Below, in pieces: positions 2,971 through 13,426 of a stretch of 64,000 nucleotides of DNA. The notes below the pieces were generated by a model. The model did not search any database and was not told the DNA's origin. It worked only from the letters and a program-made list of their open reading frames with translations. Position numbers and translations under genes: made by a program. The stretch spans positions 16,860 through 80,859 of the forward strand of contig NZ_AOIM01000034.1 of assembly GCF_000337575.1 (NCBI RefSeq), read 5' to 3'. Positions within the stretch are counted from its first letter, which is position 1, and each line of letters starts with the position of its first letter. This stretch comes from Natrialba hulunbeirensis JCM 10989. GTDB lineage: Archaea > Halobacteriota > Halobacteria > Halobacteriales > Natrialbaceae.

Positions 2971-3315
2971 GGTGTGTAGCAGCCGTCGCCCCGAACGGGG
3001 GACGGGTGGTCTCGATTCGAAATACGGGTTCCCCGTATATAATGTTTCACTTTCTTGGTAGGAATGGATGTGTGTTACCACACAACATTATAGAAAACAA
3101 CCGTTATAGACTCCATAGACCATTGTAACCACTACCATGGTAACCTTTGTCTACATTACCAAACGATTATACATTCGGACGTGAACGAGCTCGCTGTGAT
3201 CCGTAGTGATGGCGACAGTCACAGCTGCGCAGTGCGAAGCGAACGGGAACCGAACAGGAGACAGAAAGCCCGAGAGGAGTCAGAAACGCCCGTCGTGCTG
3301 GATTCGGCTCGGTAG
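2971..3315. other. intergenic region, left copy of a duplicated locus
   Basis: No gene is visible. The part near 3035-3130 (CCCCGTATATAATG, then TAGACTCCATAGACCATTG) has a diverged counterpart at 5270-5370 (CCGCATATCACATTTC, then TAGACCGTATACCCTATTG). It holds TATA-like elements that could serve the gene at 2689-2970. Confidence 0.55.
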
Positions 3316-3444
3316 CTACAGATCCGCGACGTCTTCGATGGCGTCGGTGAGCGCCCGAATACTCTCGACATCGTGTTCGCCCATGTGACCGATGCGGAAC
3401 GTCTGCTCGCCGAGCGCGGAGCCGTAGCCGTTCGAGAAGACGAT
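3316..3444 (-). pseudogene. C-terminal fragment of class V aminotransferase (left copy)
   Basis: Read on the minus strand this encodes 42 residues ending IRALTDAIEDVADL and a TAG stop. It matches the C terminus of the intact aminotransferase at 5634-6755 (ending IRTLTDAIEDAAGL) at 37 of 42 positions with no frameshift. Homology stops abruptly at about 3444, where AT-rich insert DNA begins. The rest of the gene is missing, so this is a truncated relic. The five differences show it diverged from the intact copy, or came from a related strain, rather than being a fresh duplicate. Confidence 0.85.
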
Positions 3445-3464
3445 TATGACCAAGAGGGTCATAA
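3444..3464. repeat. inverted repeat at the left edge of the AT-rich insert
   Basis: TTATGACC-AAGAG-GGTCATAA is a perfect 8-base stem with a 5-base loop, lying on the point where homology to the aminotransferase ends. It sits about 30 bases before the TATA box of the next gene. It could be an operator, a terminator hairpin or a recombination site; the sequence does not decide. Confidence 0.5.
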
Positions 3465-3528
3465 CCATAGGAAATTGTTATAAGGAGTTTCTATAAGATA
3501 TTTATTATTGTTGGCCTATGTGATTTTC

Positions 3529-4578
3529 ATGGGAGAAGATAAATCCCAACACAGTCGGTCAAGAAGAGATTTTTGTCGAACGAGCGTTGCATTAGTAGGT
3601 TTCGGAGGACTCACACAAACATCATCAGCGGATGATGCGAATACTGATGATTACATGCGTCCACCACCAGGTGGAGAACCGTCTCCAACGACTGATGAAT
3701 GGGATGGTGCCTGTTATGTCAATCCGTCCCTATACCAGTATGAGGGATATCATACGAGCAGTGTTGTTGAATATGATCGATTTTATGCGCCAAATAATCC
3801 TCTAGGAGCGTGGGGTCATGACCTGCAAATAACTGCGCGGTCGGAATTCGGACGTTGGAGTTCCCGATTAGGAGATGATCCAAGCGATGCCGATTTTGCT
3901 CCGTATTTGGAAGCACAAGGGATTAATTTTGATATGAATAATGGGAATCTAATGACTCCAAGTCCAGGTAATATGGAAAACAATAATTATTTCGGGACAT
4001 CTCGTCCAGAAGACGATGATGCCGAGAAATTAAATGAACCCGATGATGACGAACTTGAAGATGTTCTTGAAGCAGCATTAGGTGCTGCTCCAGTAATTGG
4101 GGACATGCTAGATTACGCAGCTATCGCCGATGCCCTCATTGCGGATGGAAACAACGGTGAAGGATACGATTTTTACTGGCCATTCGCTACTGGAGGAGCA
4201 TCTACGGGGTCAGGATTAACTGAAACAACCTGTACGATTCGATGTCAAGCATTTGGTGACCCAGATACGTACATTACTGGGACTATTGAAGCGACGATCT
4301 GGGCCGAAACGAATTTTGGTGATGAATGGGGGAATAGGTTACACACCCATGAATGGGAAGTAGAACTGTGGTGTCCTGATTGGGTCCCTGATGAAGTTGG
4401 TCAAGCCACAATATCTAGCCCAGAATTCACGAACGACGAGAAGACCAATATTGTGGTAGAAGACGTAGATGAGTCGTTGGTAATCAATGGGGAAGAAATA
4501 GATATAGAGAAGAGGGTAAAAAAATGTCCCCTCCCAAATTCGGCAAGTAAGTTAATCGGGTGCGCTACATATTTGTAA
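3529..4578 (+). CDS. Tat-exported protein of unknown function (AT-rich insert)
   Basis: A 349-residue protein from the ATG at 3529; a TTG at 3508 would add seven residues. I prefer 3529 because the TATA-like TATAAGATATTTAT (3492-3505) lies about 30 bases upstream and the N terminus then reads MGEDKSQHSRSRRDFCRTS, a Tat signal with the RRDF core ending near SSADDA. The mature part is acidic, with Pro/Gly-rich residues 45-60, a DDDELEDVLEAALGAAPVIGDML helix region (read in parts) and Cys residues in TCTIRC and LWCPDW. No known domain is recognised. Base composition is much lower in GC than all neighbours, indicating acquired DNA. It converges on the lipoprotein gene with adjoining stop codons. 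Confidence 0.7.
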   Translation: MGEDKSQHSRSRRDFCRTSVALVGFGGLTQTSSADDANTDDYMRPPPGGEPSPTTDEWDGACYVNPSLYQYEGYHTSSVVEYDRFYAPNNPLGAWGHDLQITARSEFGRWSSRLGDDPSDADFAPYLEAQGINFDMNNGNLMTPSPGNMENNNYFGTSRPEDDDAEKLNEPDDDELEDVLEAALGAAPVIGDMLDYAAIADALIADGNNGEGYDFYWPFATGGASTGSGLTETTCTIRCQAFGDPDTYITGTIEATIWAETNFGDEWGNRLHTHEWEVELWCPDWVPDEVGQATISSPEFTNDEKTNIVVEDVDESLVINGEEIDIEKRVKKCPLPNSASKLIGCATYL

Positions 4579-5031
4579 CTAGCAATCATATTCTCTATTT
4601 TCTGGGTCCAATTTAAAGAAAGATACTTCCTCTTCCTCTGTAATAACTGCTTGAACACCCACTGGGATAGAATCAGCATATATTGCTGTCATGTCAATGG
4701 ATTTCCATTCAGAAGAACCTACCTTTACACGAAATTTGAAGGCACCTTCTCGTGAAGGAAGGTCTGATCTTGTTATTGAAATGGTAGTTGGATTAAGATT
4801 ATGAGACATCCCTAATGGGGATAATTTTTTAGTTACTTCATATACCAATTCATCCTCATCAACAATTTGTGCACGGATATTATAGCTGTTTGACCCATCC
4901 ATATTTTGAATAGTTGCCAAGCAAAATTGGACAGGCTCGTCTAATTCTTCGTCCGAGGTACAACCGCTACTCATCAGTAGTATACTACTAGTACAAACTC
5001 CTAACAATGTTCGACGTGGTAGAGAAGGCAT
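4579..5031 (-). CDS. lipoprotein of unknown function (AT-rich insert)
   Basis: A 150-residue protein starts MPSLPRRTLLGVCTSSILLMSSGC: a twin-arginine signal followed by the lipobox-like MSSGC, so it is probably a membrane-anchored lipoprotein facing outside. The mature part looks like a single beta-sandwich (alternating strands such as YNIRAQIVDEDELVYEV and FKFRVKVGSSEW), as in many small haloarchaeal lipoproteins. TATA-like CTATAAGTT on the minus strand at 5060-5069 is about 30 bases before the ATG, supporting a leaderless start. Its stop adjoins the stop of the exported protein on the other strand. AT-rich like that gene, unlike the host. Confidence 0.7.
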   Translation of the reverse strand: MPSLPRRTLLGVCTSSILLMSSGCTSDEELDEPVQFCLATIQNMDGSNSYNIRAQIVDEDELVYEVTKKLSPLGMSHNLNPTTISITRSDLPSREGAFKFRVKVGSSEWKSIDMTAIYADSIPVGVQAVITEEEEVSFFKLDPENREYDC

Positions 5032-5073
5032 TTTTAACTACGTGAGAGGTTGTATTGGTTTAACTTATAGCCG

Positions 5074-5087
5074 TTGGTTCCAACCAA
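5074..5087. repeat. palindrome at the right edge of the AT-rich insert
   Basis: TTGGTTCCAACCAA is a 14-base palindrome ending within a few bases of where homology to the left locus copy resumes (about 5090). It is not the same sequence as the hairpin at the left edge. Confidence 0.4.
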
Positions 5088-5090
5088 TAT

Positions 5091-5214
5091 AGCTGACGGC
5101 GACGAGAAGCGTGAACGTGCCGAGCAGGAACGCGAGACCGCCGCCGATCGAACTCGCGACCGATGGTGGTTTCGGGCCTGTGCCGCTCGGTTGAAGGTGT
5201 GGATATCAGATCAT
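5091..5214 (-). pseudogene. broken 5' fragment of the small membrane protein (right copy)
   Basis: Minus-strand codons read M-I-stop-YPHLQPSGTGPKPPSVASSIGG and on to LLVAVSY, matching the first 40 or so residues of the intact protein at 2689-2970 (MTQYPHLRPRSTDPKPPS). The third codon is TGA, and homology ends at about 5090 in the AT-rich insert, so this copy is both nonsense-mutated and truncated. It mirrors the truncated aminotransferase on the left flank. Confidence 0.8.
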
Positions 5215-5633
5215 GGGTCATGTAACCGCCGTCTCGAACGGGACGTGTGAGTTAAGTCGACGTATGTCCTCGCCGCATATCACATTTCATATTTCTTATA
5301 AGAATAGTAGTAACGGTAACGCGCGCGACTGTAGAGATCATCCGATATAGACCGTATACCCTATTGAAACAAGTACTATGATACAGTATCTGAATCACGA
5401 AAATATCATACAAGCATGATGACTGGTCCGGCGGTGCGCAAAGCGGAAGTGAGATGACTGCGAGGCCAACGGCGCAACGCAAATACGAGACGACGAGAGA
5501 GTCGCGTCGCTTGAGCACGTTCGAAGACGAGCGAAAACAGCGGAGACAGCGAAGAACGAAAAATGGAGTCGCCGTCGTTCCGCCGTCACGGCGGGTTCCA
5601 GGACGCTCCGACCGATGTGTGCGCCCCCGTCGG
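5215..5633. other. intergenic region, right copy of a duplicated locus
   Basis: No gene is supported. The left half is a diverged copy of 2971-3315. The part from about 5400 to 5633 is GC-rich and lies between the promoter relic and the 3' end of the aminotransferase; I see nothing specific in it. Confidence 0.5.
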
Positions 5634-6755
5634 TTACAGGCCGGCAGCGTCTTCGATCGCGTCGGTCAGCGTCCGAATGCTCTCGACGTCGTGTTCGCCC
5701 ATGTGACCGATGCGGAACGTCTCCTCGCCGAGTGCGGAGCCGTAGCCGTTCGAGAAGACCATATCGTATTCCTCGGAGACGGCATCGATCGTTTCCGCAA
5801 CGTCGATCCCCTGCGTGTTCTCGATACAGCTCACCGTCTGGGACTCGTAGCCCGCCTCGGGAAACATATCGAAGTGCTCGCGCGCCCACTCGCGCGTGTA
5901 CTCGGACATCTCTCGGTGACGCTGGTCGCGCGCGTCGTGGCCTTCGTCGAGCATGTGCTTCATCTGCTGCCGGTAGGCCAGCATGATTGGAATCGCCGGC
6001 GTGGAGTGGGTCTGGCCCTTCCGGTCGTAGTAGTCGAGCGACCGCTGGAACCCGCCGTACCACGAGGCCGAGTCGGACTCGAGTTCGCGCTCGTAGGCGT
6101 CGTCGCTGACGACACAGACGCCGAGTCCCGGCGGCATCGCGAACGCCTTCTGGACCGAGGTGAAGATCACGTCGATGTTGTGCTCGTCGATGGCGACGAA
6201 ATCGCCACCCAGCGAGGAGACCGCGTCGACGATGAAGTACGTGTCCGGGTACTCCGCGACCACGTCGCCGATCTCCTCGACCGGGTTCCGGACACCGGTC
6301 GAGGACTCGTTCATCACGCACGTGACCGCGTCGTACTCGCGGTCGCTCTCCTCGAGCGCCTCGCGGACGTCCTCGGGCTTGACCGCCTGGCCCCAGTCGT
6401 ACTCGAGTGTGTCCACGGTCTTGCCCACCCGCTCGGCGACGTTGGCCTGGCGTTCGCTGAAGCTGCCACAGGTTGTGACGAGGACGTTGTCGTCGACGAG
6501 GTTGAGGATCGAGCTCTCCATGAACTCGGTGCCGGAGCCGGTGAGAATGATGACGTCGTTGTCGGTGCCGAGGAAGGTCTTGGTATCCTCGACGATGGTC
6601 GTGTAGAGGTCGGTCATCCGGTCCATGCGGTGGCCGAACATCGGCTCGCACATGGCCTCGATGACATCGTCGCGCACCTCAGTCGGGCCGGGGATGTACA
6701 GCGTCTGCTCGGGATAGTCGTCTTGGTATTCGCGTTTTTCGGTCACGGAAGCCAC
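5634..6755 (-). CDS. class V aminotransferase (alanine-glyoxylate/serine-pyruvate type)
   Basis: A 373-residue PLP enzyme of fold type I. The N terminus carries the family motif IPGPTEV, then FGHRM, TGSGTEFME (cofactor phosphate loop), VDAVSSLGG with the PLP-pyridine Asp177, and SVQKAFAMPPG with the Schiff-base Lys203. Family members transfer amino groups between alanine or serine and glyoxylate or pyruvate; the exact substrate cannot be read here. Full length and intact, ending IEDAAGL. Its last 42 codons are present as a relic at 3316-3444, showing that the small membrane protein and this gene were once neighbours. Confidence 0.88.
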   Translation of the reverse strand: MASVTEKREYQDDYPEQTLYIPGPTEVRDDVIEAMCEPMFGHRMDRMTDLYTTIVEDTKTFLGTDNDVIILTGSGTEFMESSILNLVDDNVLVTTCGSFSERQANVAERVGKTVDTLEYDWGQAVKPEDVREALEESDREYDAVTCVMNESSTGVRNPVEEIGDVVAEYPDTYFIVDAVSSLGGDFVAIDEHNIDVIFTSVQKAFAMPPGLGVCVVSDDAYERELESDSASWYGGFQRSLDYYDRKGQTHSTPAIPIMLAYRQQMKHMLDEGHDARDQRHREMSEYTREWAREHFDMFPEAGYESQTVSCIENTQGIDVAETIDAVSEEYDMVFSNGYGSALGEETFRIGHMGEHDVESIRTLTDAIEDAAGL

Positions 6756-8971: not shown

Positions 8972-10282
8972 CTACCGGTCCGCCTGCGGCGACGACTTCG
9001 CACCGGACTCGAGTGACAGCCGGAGGAAGATCGGGATCGTGACGAGCGCGATTGCAATTTCGAGCCCCCCGACGACGAGGAACGCGAGGTCGTAGCCGTA
9101 GGAGCCGGCGACGGAGCCGCCGATGAGGAAACCGCCGAGGAAGCCGAGGCTGCCCGCGACGTTGAAGCCGGCCATCGCAGTTCCGCGTTCGCGTTCGTCG
9201 GCGAGGTCGGTGACGAGCGCCATCGTCGCGGGCGAGACGAGCGCGCCGAGGATGCCGACGACGATCATCGCACCGGCAGCAGAACCGACGGACGGGGCTG
9301 CCCCCACGCCGAGAATGCCGATGCCGTAACAGGCGGAGCCGACCACGACCGGAATCGTCCGCCCGATCCGGTCGGAGAGCGTCCCGAGCGGGTACTGCAG
9401 GAGGGCAAAGGGCGCGAAGAAACACGCGAGGAGCAGTCCGGTCGCACCGGGATCGAGGTTGAACGTCTCCTGGAAGTACAGCGTCCCAACGAGCGCGAAG
9501 AAGCCTGCCGTCATCCGATCGACGAAGCCGAAGGCGTAGGGCAGTGACAGTGTTGGCCGCTTGCGAACGCCCTCGAGAAGGGCACGGGCGGTCCGACGAG
9601 ACGCCGGCGTTCGGTCCTCGAGCCGAGAGACCAGAAGGCCAACACAGACGAGCAGGGTCGCCGCCGCGAGCAGCGGCGCAACTGGGTCGAGTTCGGTCAA
9701 TTGGCCGCCGATCGGGGCGCCCATCGCGGCACCGAGTCCGATGGCGATACCTGCCGCGCCCATATTACGACCGTGGCCGCCGTCGAGATCCATCAGCATC
9801 GTCATCGTTAGCGAGAACGCGCCGATGGTCATCGCACCCTGCAGGACGCGCAACAGGAGGACACCCTCGAACGGGATGGTGCCGAGCGTGGGAACGACCG
9901 CCAGCGCGGCGTAGCTCGCGGCCCCGCCGAGTGCGCTCAGTACGATAAACGGCGTCCGACGGCCCGTAACATCGCTTATCGCACCCCAGACGCCGACGAA
10001 GACGACGTAGGCCCCGAACTCGCTCACGAGAAACCACATGCTCGCATCGAGCGTCGTCGACGCGACGGGCGAACTCGCCGCATCAGCCCCCAGCACGTCG
10101 ACCAGGGTCGCGATACCCGGATAGAGCAGCAGTTGGGAGAACAGGACGGCAAAGACGACCGCCGCGAGCACCAACCGGTCACGATCACTCGAGTGCACGA
10201 CCAGAGGTTCGAACCAGGAGAATATGAAGGCGTCCGTCTCGTCGCCGTCCGTGCGCTCGCCATTAGATGCGTCGTTCGCCAC
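8972..10282 (-). CDS. MFS transporter
   Basis: A 436-residue protein with about twelve helices. The loop 2-3 motif is recognisable as GVWGAISDVTGRRTPF, and the repeat in the second half as GTLSDRIGRTIPV. The N-terminal 30 residues are acidic and soluble. The family imports or exports small solutes with an ion gradient; the layout resembles drug-efflux-like members, but no substrate is assigned. Divergent from the AT-rich islet to its right. A short inverted repeat around its likely TATA box (10331-10351) hints at local repression. Confidence 0.88.
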   Translation of the reverse strand: MANDASNGERTDGDETDAFIFSWFEPLVVHSSDRDRLVLAAVVFAVLFSQLLLYPGIATLVDVLGADAASSPVASTTLDASMWFLVSEFGAYVVFVGVWGAISDVTGRRTPFIVLSALGGAASYAALAVVPTLGTIPFEGVLLLRVLQGAMTIGAFSLTMTMLMDLDGGHGRNMGAAGIAIGLGAAMGAPIGGQLTELDPVAPLLAAATLLVCVGLLVSRLEDRTPASRRTARALLEGVRKRPTLSLPYAFGFVDRMTAGFFALVGTLYFQETFNLDPGATGLLLACFFAPFALLQYPLGTLSDRIGRTIPVVVGSACYGIGILGVGAAPSVGSAAGAMIVVGILGALVSPATMALVTDLADERERGTAMAGFNVAGSLGFLGGFLIGGSVAGSYGYDLAFLVVGGLEIAIALVTIPIFLRLSLESGAKSSPQADR

Positions 10283-10330
10283 CGCCAGGGAAGCCCGCCA
10301 GACACGTCAACAGGACTAATACCGTTAGCC

Positions 10331-10351
10331 AGTGATTTCTTAAATATCACT
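10331..10351. promoter_or_regulatory. inverted repeat flanking the probable MFS promoter
   Basis: AGTGAT and ATCACT form 6-base arms separated by 9 AT-rich bases (TTCTTAAAT), which read TATA-like on the minus strand towards the MFS gene. An operator that covers the TATA box is one reading; chance is another. Confidence 0.3.
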
Positions 10352-10646
10352 TACAGGAGAGTATTGAAGTCTATTCGGTGACCCGGACATCAACATCATA
10401 CGTAAAAATAAATGTAGATGAACGAGGGGCTATTCAAAGACCGTTCCATTTGACCAATGAAGAGCGTTTTTTACAGAGATTTGGTTAAATATAGTGCATT
10501 GAATGGATGGGATGAAATTGCGTCATAAGTAGAAGAGGTTTCAAGAGGAAGAACCCCTCCATTATATTAGATGGGAATTCTAATGGTAAATGTTTAGTTT
10601 AAGTTTATACCATAGCTTTTAATATATGTGATGAGTAATCTAATAT
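10352..10646. other. AT-rich intergenic region at the left edge of an islet
   Basis: From about 10381 the sequence becomes strongly AT-rich up to the start of the exported-protein gene. No gene or transposase remnant is visible. It ends with the promoter of the next gene. Confidence 0.5.
10615..10626 (+). promoter_or_regulatory. TATA box of the Cys-rich exported protein gene
   Basis: GCTTTTAATATA lies about 26 bases before the ATG at 10647, as expected for a leaderless transcript. Confidence 0.45.
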
Positions 10647-11543
10647 ATGGAAAGAAGAAGGTTACTCCAAGCAATTGGAAGCGGATCGGTTGGTATCGGT
10701 ACTGTAGGGGCAATTTCAGGTAGTAGTACGGCCAAAGAAAACAACATTGCAGCACGAGACCACAGTGAGGACGCTACAGCGTCTCTAATCAAACAGGCTC
10801 AATCGGATTCGGACTTACGCGCCCTCATTGATCATGCAAATGAAAACGGATGGCGTATACCGTGGGACAGTGCAACAACTAAACGTATAACCAGCCAAAC
10901 GGAAACAGGGTATTACGACTACATCGTTGTCGAGGCGGAGTCGTCTAGCCAACAAGTGGAGAAAGAGGAGGAGTTAGTATTCATTTGGATTGGTAACGAT
11001 ACAATGGGTTTAGACCTTTCGCACCATACAGTTATCCACCACGTTCAAAAAACGGACAAACCGACAGCTAGTGGCCTCTTTGGGTGGGACAAAGTAAAGG
11101 TGATAAAATCCGAGGCCGGTGATATTATCCAAACAGAGAGGGATTTCCATAGGGAGAACGAATTAGGAGCGGACGATTACACGTTCCCTCCCGGTGGTGG
11201 CAGTAGTGAATGTGTCGAAGTAGACGTCCAAATAGCTCCAGACGCAAAATGGGATTGTGTCGCCCTAGCTGTCGCGGGTGCGATTCCAACTTCCGTGCCA
11301 TGTTCGACTTGTATTCTAGATGTTACACGTACGTCGTGTGCTGTCTGCGCAATTGCGACTGTTATATACAAGGTTTCCTCGATGCATTGCTTTTCTGATT
11401 TGGGGCCTGTCGTTCAAGCAGATGTCGAAGAATGGTTTTTCGAGGAACACGATGATTTCAGTTACTCGGATTTTGCGACCTGGACAGATGAGGCACTAGT
11501 TGTTGACGAAACCTTCTACAACGAAGACCTACCTGTCTGCTAG
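10647..11543 (+). CDS. Tat-exported protein with C-terminal Cys-rich domain; halocin C8-like layout
   Basis: A 298-residue protein with a short Tat-like signal (MERRRLLQAIGSGSVGIG). Residues 30-187 contain no cysteine; all eight cysteines lie in the last 110 residues (189, 204, 219, 222, 231, 234, 248, 298) around a hydrophobic core (VALAVAGAIPTSVPCSTC, then TSCAVCAIATVIY). Halocin C8 precursors share this plan: Tat signal, immunity half, then a Cys-rich peptide released by cleavage. The link is inferred from layout, not a recognised match. A Gly-rich hinge (PPGGGSS, 181-187) precedes the first Cys. AT-rich composition marks it as acquired. The next gene begins directly at its stop codon. Confidence 0.65.
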   Translation: MERRRLLQAIGSGSVGIGTVGAISGSSTAKENNIAARDHSEDATASLIKQAQSDSDLRALIDHANENGWRIPWDSATTKRITSQTETGYYDYIVVEAESSSQQVEKEEELVFIWIGNDTMGLDLSHHTVIHHVQKTDKPTASGLFGWDKVKVIKSEAGDIIQTERDFHRENELGADDYTFPPGGGSSECVEVDVQIAPDAKWDCVALAVAGAIPTSVPCSTCILDVTRTSCAVCAIATVIYKVSSMHCFSDLGPVVQADVEEWFFEEHDDFSYSDFATWTDEALVVDETFYNEDLPVC

Positions 11544-11891
11544 GTGAGCTATAGAGCCACATTTATATCCACATGGTTATGGGAATTTAAATATATAATA
11601 CGGAGAAATATACAGAACACCATGATGAGTCCACTGCTCTTGTTGTACATCCTGTTATTTATATTTCTATTTTTGATTATAAGGAGAGAGTATGCAAGAG
11701 GGTCAGATAAGTATGAAATTTGTGGTTGGGTTATGGTGGCGGGAAGCTTTTTCTTCCTCTTTGTTACTACTACTGACATGCATGTTCCTATATTATCAAG
11801 GGTGCAAGAAGTGACTGTGTACGGTCTAATAGCCATTCAGGGGGTGGCAGCGTGGATGTTTCTCTGGTTATCGAATACGTCAAAGTTTTAA
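11544..11891 (+). CDS. small three-helix membrane protein, probable partner of the upstream exported protein
   Basis: The frame opens with GTG at 11544, immediately after the upstream TAG, giving 115 residues; an ATG pair at 11622 would give 89. The immediate abutment argues for translational coupling from 11544, but the hydrophobic part starts only after 11622. Helices are visible at LLLLYILLFIFLFLII, GWVMVAGSFFFLFV and VYGLIAIQGVAAWMFLWL. No family is recognised. A small membrane protein behind an exported Cys-rich protein could be an immunity or export factor; that is inference from position. Strongly AT-rich. Confidence 0.55.
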   Translation: MSYRATFISTWLWEFKYIIRRNIQNTMMSPLLLLYILLFIFLFLIIRREYARGSDKYEICGWVMVAGSFFFLFVTTTDMHVPILSRVQEVTVYGLIAIQGVAAWMFLWLSNTSKF

Positions 11892-12085
11892 TATCTTATC
11901 TGTGGCAGACTAAATTGGTTATTGGCGTTAGTTTTACAGATAGTTATTAATACGACTACAGACGGCCACACCAGATAACCCGATTCAGCCCACGTTTTAA
12001 TTCCGGAGTGTTATCACTAGCCACAGACAGCGGTTTTTGCCGTTACTGAGGCGCATATGAGTCTGGAGTTATATGCATACTGAAC

Positions 12086-13426
12086 ATGAGCGACGACGCG
12101 AGCGACGGGACCGACGCCGAGTTCGGGACGGCGGAATTCGGCACGCGGAGCGTTCACGCCGGCCAGCGAGCCGATCCGGCCACTGGTGCGCGCGCCCCGC
12201 CGATCTACCAGACGACATCCTACACCTTCCCCGACGCCGAGACCGCCGCCGAGCGCTACGCGCTGGCGGACGACGGCTACATCTACTCTCGAATCAGCAA
12301 CCCCACCGTCGAAATGCTCGAGGACCGCCTCGCCTCACTCGAGAACGGGGCGGGCGCGGTCGCGACGGGCAGCGGTATGGCCGCACTCGACTCGGCCACC
12401 CTGATCCTCGCCGAGGCGGGCGACAACGTCGTCTGCTCGACCGACACCTACGGCGGGACGACGGCCTACTTCGCGAAGACCGCAACGCGACGCGACATCG
12501 AACCCAGATTCGTGCCGACACTCGAGTACGACGCCTACGAGGAAGCCATCGACGAGGACACCGCCTTCGTGCACGTCGAGACGATCGGCAATCCCTCGCT
12601 CGTCACGCCGGATTTCGAACGCGTGGCCGAAATCGCCCACGACAACGGCGTGCCGCTGGTGGTCGACAACACGTTCGCGACGCCGGCGCTCTGTCGGCCG
12701 CTCGAGCACGGGGCCGACGTGGTCTGGGAGTCGACGACGAAGTGGCTCCACGGCTCGGGGACGACCGTCGGCGGCGTGCTCGTCGACGGCGGCACGTTCC
12801 CGTGGGGCGAGCACGGCTACGACGAGGTTGCCGGACAGAATCACGCCTACCACGACGTCGACTTCTCGCGGGACTTCCCCGAAGCACCGTTCGCCGCCGC
12901 TGCTCGCTTCCGCTCGCTTCGCAGCCTCGGCAACCAGCAGTCACCCTTTGACGCCTGGCAGACGCTACAGGGACTCGAGTCCCTCCCGCTGCGGATGGAC
13001 AAACACTGCGAGAACGCGGCCATCGTCGCGGAGTACCTGGCCGACCACGAGGATGTCGCCTGGGTGACCCAGCCCGGACTCGAGTCCCATCCGACCCACG
13101 ACAACGCCGCGCGCTACCTGGCCGACTACGGCGGCATGGTTGCGTTCGGTCTCGAGACCGGCTACGAGGGCGGAAAGACGTTCTGTGAGAGCGTGGAAGT
13201 CGCTCAGTTCCTCGCGAACATCGGCGACGCGAAGACGCTGGTGATCCACCCCGCGAGCACGACTCACGGTCAGCTCACCCCCGAGGAGCAAGCGGAGGCC
13301 GGCGTCACGCCGGATCTGATCCGCATGTCGGTCGGCATCGAGGACCCCGCGGACATCCTCGCCGACCTCGAGCAGGCGATTGAAACCGCGACACGGACGG
13401 CGACGGAGGGCGACGGACGAACATGA
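12086..13426 (+). CDS. metY: O-acetylhomoserine sulfhydrylase (aminocarboxypropyltransferase)
   Basis: A 446-residue Cys/Met-metabolism PLP enzyme. Visible motifs: [18 protein letters not shown] near the N terminus, [12 protein letters not shown], the cofactor loop [18 protein letters not shown] and the PLP-lysine segment [11 protein letters not shown]. It makes homocysteine from O-acetylhomoserine and sulfide (or homologous thiols). The downstream metX overlaps by four bases (ATGA), which supports this substrate: MetX makes the O-acetylhomoserine used here. The C-terminal [11 protein letters not shown] is typical acidic haloarchaeal sequence. GC rises sharply at its start compared with the islet upstream. 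Confidence 0.93.

Follow-up and report, generated by a model that had tools for sequence, protein, structure and literature searches.

The window, that is, the whole 64,000-nucleotide stretch of Natrialba DNA analysed here, contains an AT-rich islet of about 1.8 kb (positions 10242-12004), which lies between a gene for an MFS-type transporter on the minus strand (8975-10282) and a Cys/Met-metabolism gene on the plus strand (12086-13423). Its low GC content had been pointed out in an earlier, sequence-only reading of this DNA and was confirmed here: it amounts to 0.44-0.48, against about 0.65 on either side. The islet carries two genes, both on the plus strand, one for a secreted protein resembling antimicrobial precursors and one for a small membrane protein.

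The first gene (10647-11543) is an open frame encoding 298 residues, and its product begins with MERRRLLQAIG, a twin-arginine start. The Tat-type signal covers residues 1-30 (10647-10736), its end being approximate, and the arginine pair at residues 3-4 is nearly invariant in the relatives of the protein. In NCBIfam, Tat-related models match the window protein below cut-off only; judging by the conserved arginine pair, the precursor would be exported by the Tat pathway. The signal is followed by an N-terminal domain, residues 36-124 (10752-11018), which hhalign and profile A6 relate to the N-terminal (HalI) domain of the halocin C8 precursor, as described below. A single-sequence structure prediction of the precursor (mean pLDDT 37) contained two low-confidence helices, at residues 41-49 and 54-66, which coincide with the region homologous to the halocin C8 domain, and this domain is probably a helix-loop-helix followed by strands.

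The C-terminal part of the protein holds all of its cysteines, at residues 189, 204, 219, 222, 231, 234, 248 and 298. The asymmetry noticed in the sequence-only reading, with none in residues 1-188 and eight in 189-298, is thus real, and by simple placement the chance of finding all eight after residue 188 is about (110/298)^8 = 3e-4. The same reading was right about a Gly-rich hinge and a hydrophobic core. The Gly/Pro-rich hinge, PPGGGSSE at residues 181-188 (11187-11210), puts the motif PPGGGSS ahead of the first cysteine; about half of the relatives also have Gly/Pro-rich linkers just ahead of the first core cysteine. The hinge is likely to be the processing region. Residues 189-248 (11211-11390) make up a disulfide-type core with the motifs CSTC and CAVC, and residues 186-252 are hydrophobic, with a GRAVY of +0.80. 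The core continues into an acidic C-terminal tail, residues 249-298 (11391-11540), which is delimited by the alignment of the window family, ends in a cysteine and is missing from halocin C8. Taken together, residues 185-298 compute to 12.4 kDa, more than the fragment of roughly 11 kDa that had been anticipated, with a pI of 4.05.

Direct searches placed neither the precursor nor the membrane protein in any Pfam or NCBIfam family and returned subthreshold noise only. Genome searches, in turn, found relatives of the precursor in 12 of the 125 genomes of the family: two sister species have a nearly identical protein, a further genus has one with 41% identity, and several others reach 20-30%; tblastn recovered the same protein at 100% identity from Natrialba sp. 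SSL1. The broad matches of profile A2 were for the most part confined to the signal sequence and were not taken for relatives. The arginine pair and the cysteines C204, C219, C234 and C248 are invariant in a nine-member alignment; for the four cysteines this holds in alignments A2 and A4. Fourteen diverse family members have 0-1 cysteines in residues 36-170 and 8-14 after residue 170, the number being even in all fourteen, and such even counts would fit a secreted, fully disulfide-bonded peptide. The plasmids, phages and viral contigs searched yielded no relatives of the module, and there is thus no sign of its carriage by a known virus or plasmid. A paralogue group, represented by L070 in the same genome (G000:C14) and by L075, has an RR signal and few cysteines, weakly matches the N-terminal portion of the profile and is followed by an ORF for a 65-residue, two-helix membrane protein; it is possibly a further branch.

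The second gene encodes a small membrane protein with three hydrophobic segments, in agreement with the three-helix membrane protein that had been read after the precursor. It had also been said to start at the stop codon of the precursor, and the full open frame (11544-11891, 115 codons) does open with a GTG directly after the TAG. This GTG was ruled out as the start, however, because the sister species G045 and G046 carry a 1-bp insertion (an extra A) at position 11583 that shifts the frame; in both of them the frame containing MMSPL opens at its own ATG and runs for 89 codons. Substitutions cluster in 11568-11595, and in two relatives at a greater distance the membrane ORF likewise opens near 11622. 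The gene therefore most likely extends from the ATG at 11622 to 11891, starts about 80 nt past the precursor stop and encodes 89 residues. This protein matched none of the known immunity families, nor any Pfam or NCBIfam family; the gene's position downstream of the precursor, which recurs in relatives, makes it a predicted immunity partner.

We assessed this recurrence by counting the ORFs that encode 45-140 residues, contain two or more hydrophobic segments and start between -60 and +250 nt from the stop of the preceding gene. The background consisted of 323 genes from the window and 20 stretches of 20 kb of the same genome. Such an ORF follows 9 of the 19 window-type precursors and 8 of the 18 halocin C8-type precursors, compared with 11 of the 323 background genes (Fisher 7e-8 and 6e-7, respectively), and ORFs with at least three hydrophobic segments were found at 8 of 19 window-type loci and 4 of 323 background genes (8e-9). 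As the loci are in part interdependent (L004 and L005 come from the same genus) and a few are damaged or partial (L056, L059 and L060), these P values serve as guides. An adjacent small membrane gene is commoner than chance beside window-type precursors, and ten of the 19 loci have no such ORF as here defined. It needs to be mentioned that one relative of the precursor, in G047 (L006 and L013), is divided between two overlapping frames, which may reflect a pseudogene, a programmed shift or a sequencing error; a membrane ORF is still present downstream of it.

The sequence-only reading likened the precursor to that of halocin C8, and this likeness was found to hold for one half of the protein. 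As a search query we used the 76-residue sequence that we took to be that of the halocin C8 peptide, and only for this purpose; it matched genome G050 at 100%, which bears the assumed sequence out. Halocin C8 precursors collected from genomes match both Hac8_like_N (PF22862) and halocin_C8_dom (TIGR04449). When the N-domains of these precursors were compared with those of the window family after removal of the signals, hhalign gave a probability of 93.5% (E 2e-7, score 50.2), whereas 200 column shuffles reached at most a score of 14.3 and 0.4%, and a reversed control scored 15.1; the probability was still 87.7% without the most divergent member. When the N-domain profile was run by HMM against 415 proteins, of which 401 were background and 14 were halocin C8 precursors, its seven best non-self matches were all precursors of halocin C8. 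The same profile recovered the halocin C8 locus of G050, which lies outside the profile, although its close relatives are inside it. These comparisons establish the window N-domain as homologous to the N-terminal domain of halocin C8. The relation to PF22862 itself is a distant one, since a direct search of the window's own genome with that model returned nothing at E<=1, and the superfamily is wider than PF22862.

The C-terminal half behaved differently. The profile comparison of residues 185-298 with the halocin C8 peptide, which had been suggested as a check, gave an hhalign probability of 0.6%, inside the range of the shuffles. The C-domain profile showed no enrichment of halocin C8 precursors in the same 415-protein scan, and TIGR04449 matched neither the window precursor nor six relatives at its curated cut-off of 24 bits. 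The C-half was therefore rejected as a halocin C8 homologue at the profile level, and the half of the proposed plan that concerned it did not stand. A second haloarchaeal group (L012, L054-L058, L060, L076 and L077) is related to the window family in both halves (N-half 98.1%, C-half 94.8%), but its relation to halocin C8 is limited to the N-half (94.2%). By these profile results the Cys-rich C-half of the window precursor forms a family of its own, and the same N-domain occurs together with two or more Cys-rich C-domains without detectable mutual homology. On the same grounds, the module is placed outside the halocin C8 family proper and inside a wider superfamily that shares its N-domain. 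What remains supported is the overall plan of an exported precursor with an N-domain, a Cys-rich hydrophobic C-domain and a small membrane partner.

The superfamily is not confined to haloarchaea. A search of 393 genomes from the phylum with profile A6, built from the N-domain only, found members in 26, 12 of them outside the haloarchaeal order. These non-haloarchaeal relatives have a signal without the arginine pair, the N-domain and a Cys-rich hydrophobic C-domain, which in L135, for example, resembles that of halocin C8 on visual inspection. At 10 of 13 non-haloarchaeal loci the precursor is followed, often with overlap, by a small membrane ORF; the background rate given above refers to the window genome. 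Homologues outside haloarchaea with another known role would have told against the antibiotic proposal; the relatives found there share the layout and have no other assigned role. Two N-domain proteins, L125 and L143, carry a long extension ahead of the RR signal, with the motif GGGCxEAW inside it.

The history of the locus can be read from the sister species. The module is present in the window genome (G000) and in G045 and G046, and a GC-rich lipoprotein gene stands at its place in four others (G042, G043, G044 and G047). The lipoprotein itself is conserved and about 230 residues long (L091-L094). Among the three genomes that share the module, the precursor shows a dS of 0.026 and a dN of 0.001 and the membrane gene a dS of 0.044, compared with a dS of 0.22-0.42 for the neighbouring genes. 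The low dS of the module, together with the locus swap, indicates that the islet was acquired and was recently passed between species or swept. Patchy distribution, locus swap and low dS are, in combination, typical of conflict genes.

We propose, with a probability of about two in three, that the module is a halocin-type antagonism cassette consisting of an antimicrobial precursor and a dedicated membrane immunity protein. According to this model, the first gene would give rise to a secreted precursor, exported via Tat, in which the N-domain restrains the attached, disulfide-bonded hydrophobic peptide and probably aids its folding. An extracellular protease would then cut the precursor in or near the Gly/Pro hinge and free a peptide of at most 12 kDa, acidic and rich in cysteine, which would attack the membranes of related archaea, and the three-helix product of the second gene would shield the producer. 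Elements of this scheme have precedents in haloarchaea. The precursor of halocin C8, ProC8, is exported by Tat and yields the immunity peptide HalI and the mature 76-residue peptide (PMC11509114, a review whose reference list includes Mei et al.). HalH4 and HmHapP are secreted as inactive precursors and released by proteolysis, and from HalC8 a C-terminal fragment is released (PMC12893001); in a haloarchaeon, inactive secreted precursors are activated by halolysins (PMC12893001). The window genome encodes at least eight subtilases, one of which (ORF 1080-2537, 8 kb upstream of the precursor) is halolysin-like and secreted, with an RR-type signal and a PF00082 match of 175.6 bits.

Which half would kill is a separate matter. 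HmHapP of Haloferax mediterranei frees a killing 45-residue, two-helix N-terminal fragment and its C-terminal product is inactive (PMC12893001), so that, by sequence, either half of the window protein might be the killing one. The active part might likewise be an N-terminal helix-loop-helix fragment, the Cys-rich half then serving as an anchor or inhibitor, and the low-confidence prediction that the window N-domain opens with two helices would agree with it. We nevertheless regard this arrangement as unlikely. On one hand, the N-domain is homologous to that of halocin C8, where the N-half confers immunity and the C-half kills. On the other hand, it is the N-domain that is common and the C-halves that differ in kind, as would suit a shared carrier to which different active parts can be attached.

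Another explanation dispenses with antagonism altogether and takes the precursor for a secreted Cys-rich envelope protein, with a structural, redox or metal-binding role, the membrane partner serving to anchor or assemble it. CxxC pairs are capable of metal binding or redox activity, a surface or redox protein might have this N-domain as well, and there are weak subthreshold N-terminal matches to a fimbrial adapter model, located mainly in the signal sequence. In the window protein, however, the segment around the CxxC pairs is hydrophobic, and the wider family does not conserve these pairs; moreover, the homology of the N-domain to halocin C8, the strong patchiness, the AT-rich islet, the locus swap and the recent exchange all argue against an envelope role, which we consider improbable. 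Base composition and patchiness, together with the precursor split over two frames in the relative from G047, might also be taken as marks of a decayed or passenger island, that is, of gene remnants without a present function. It seems very improbable, as the precursor is open and nearly unchanged in three species (see the dN and dS above), and intact, 41%-identical relatives with a membrane gene of their own exist in another genus.

If the module is indeed an antagonism cassette, it is instructive to compare it with the closest known systems. ProC8 (PF22862 and TIGR04449) resembles the window precursor in its RR-type signal, its N-domain by profile, its hydrophobic Cys-rich C-peptide and, roughly, its length (283 and 298 residues). 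The window C-peptide, in contrast, is not homologous by profile, has other cysteine spacing and eight cysteines instead of the ten of halocin C8, and is extended by the acidic tail; in addition, the window has a separate membrane gene. No small membrane gene lies downstream of the classical halocin C8 loci L015, L016 and L020, which therefore lack the two-gene layout of the window. Many distant relatives of halocin C8 do have this layout, and halocin C8-like relatives with a small membrane ORF (for example L030-L032, L034, L037, L042 and L043) share the N-domain family as well. Their C-peptides match TIGR04449 (tested for L031 and L037), unlike that of the window, and their membrane ORFs have two or four hydrophobic segments instead of three. 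With HmHapP/HlyR4 (PMC12893001) the module would have in common an inactive secreted precursor that needs an extracellular subtilase, a requirement demonstrated for that pair and presumed here; the fragment that kills is N-terminal there, and the likeness is drawn from the published description and not from sequence.

In bacterial two-gene bacteriocin systems, the gene of a small membrane immunity protein lies beside the toxin gene. The window module is alike in that a gene for a small membrane protein adjoins that of the putative toxin, but no sequence relation was detected, and the window precursor has a Tat-type signal and a large N-domain instead of a short leader.

A more general view, which we put forward tentatively and at slightly less than even odds, is that the N-domain best known from halocin C8 may, throughout the phylum, both carry and restrain several killing peptides that are rich in disulfides, unrelated to one another and each paired with a small membrane immunity gene of its own. 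In that case, the module of the window would represent a branch with a new type of peptide, and classical halocin C8 a reduced, one-gene form of a modular archaeal bacteriocin system. To our knowledge, few archaeal antibiotics have known genes, and archaeal immunity is hardly understood. If the proposed reading of the module is correct, the two genes would offer a compact, testable pair of peptide and protector, the shared N-domain could be used to search for many more, in haloarchaea and beyond, and the in-cis immunity of halocin C8 would turn out to be one variant of a more widespread two-gene design. A survey of archaeal antimicrobial peptides and toxins published in 2019 reportedly broadened the halocin C8 family already, and the broad idea is thus not new; in the literature that could be searched, we found neither the separate family of C-domains nor the counts of the membrane partner.

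The window also contains a second AT-rich islet (3001-5100, GC 0.42-0.47). Its cargo, of which neither protein matches Pfam, consists of genes for a Tat-type protein of 349 residues (3529-4578) and for a lipoprotein (4579-5031, minus strand). The islet is flanked by imperfect direct repeats (3317-3444 with 5635-5762, 90%; 2846-2972 with 5090-5216, 76%), and one of the two repeat pairs copies the 3' end of an aminotransferase gene (5634-6755).
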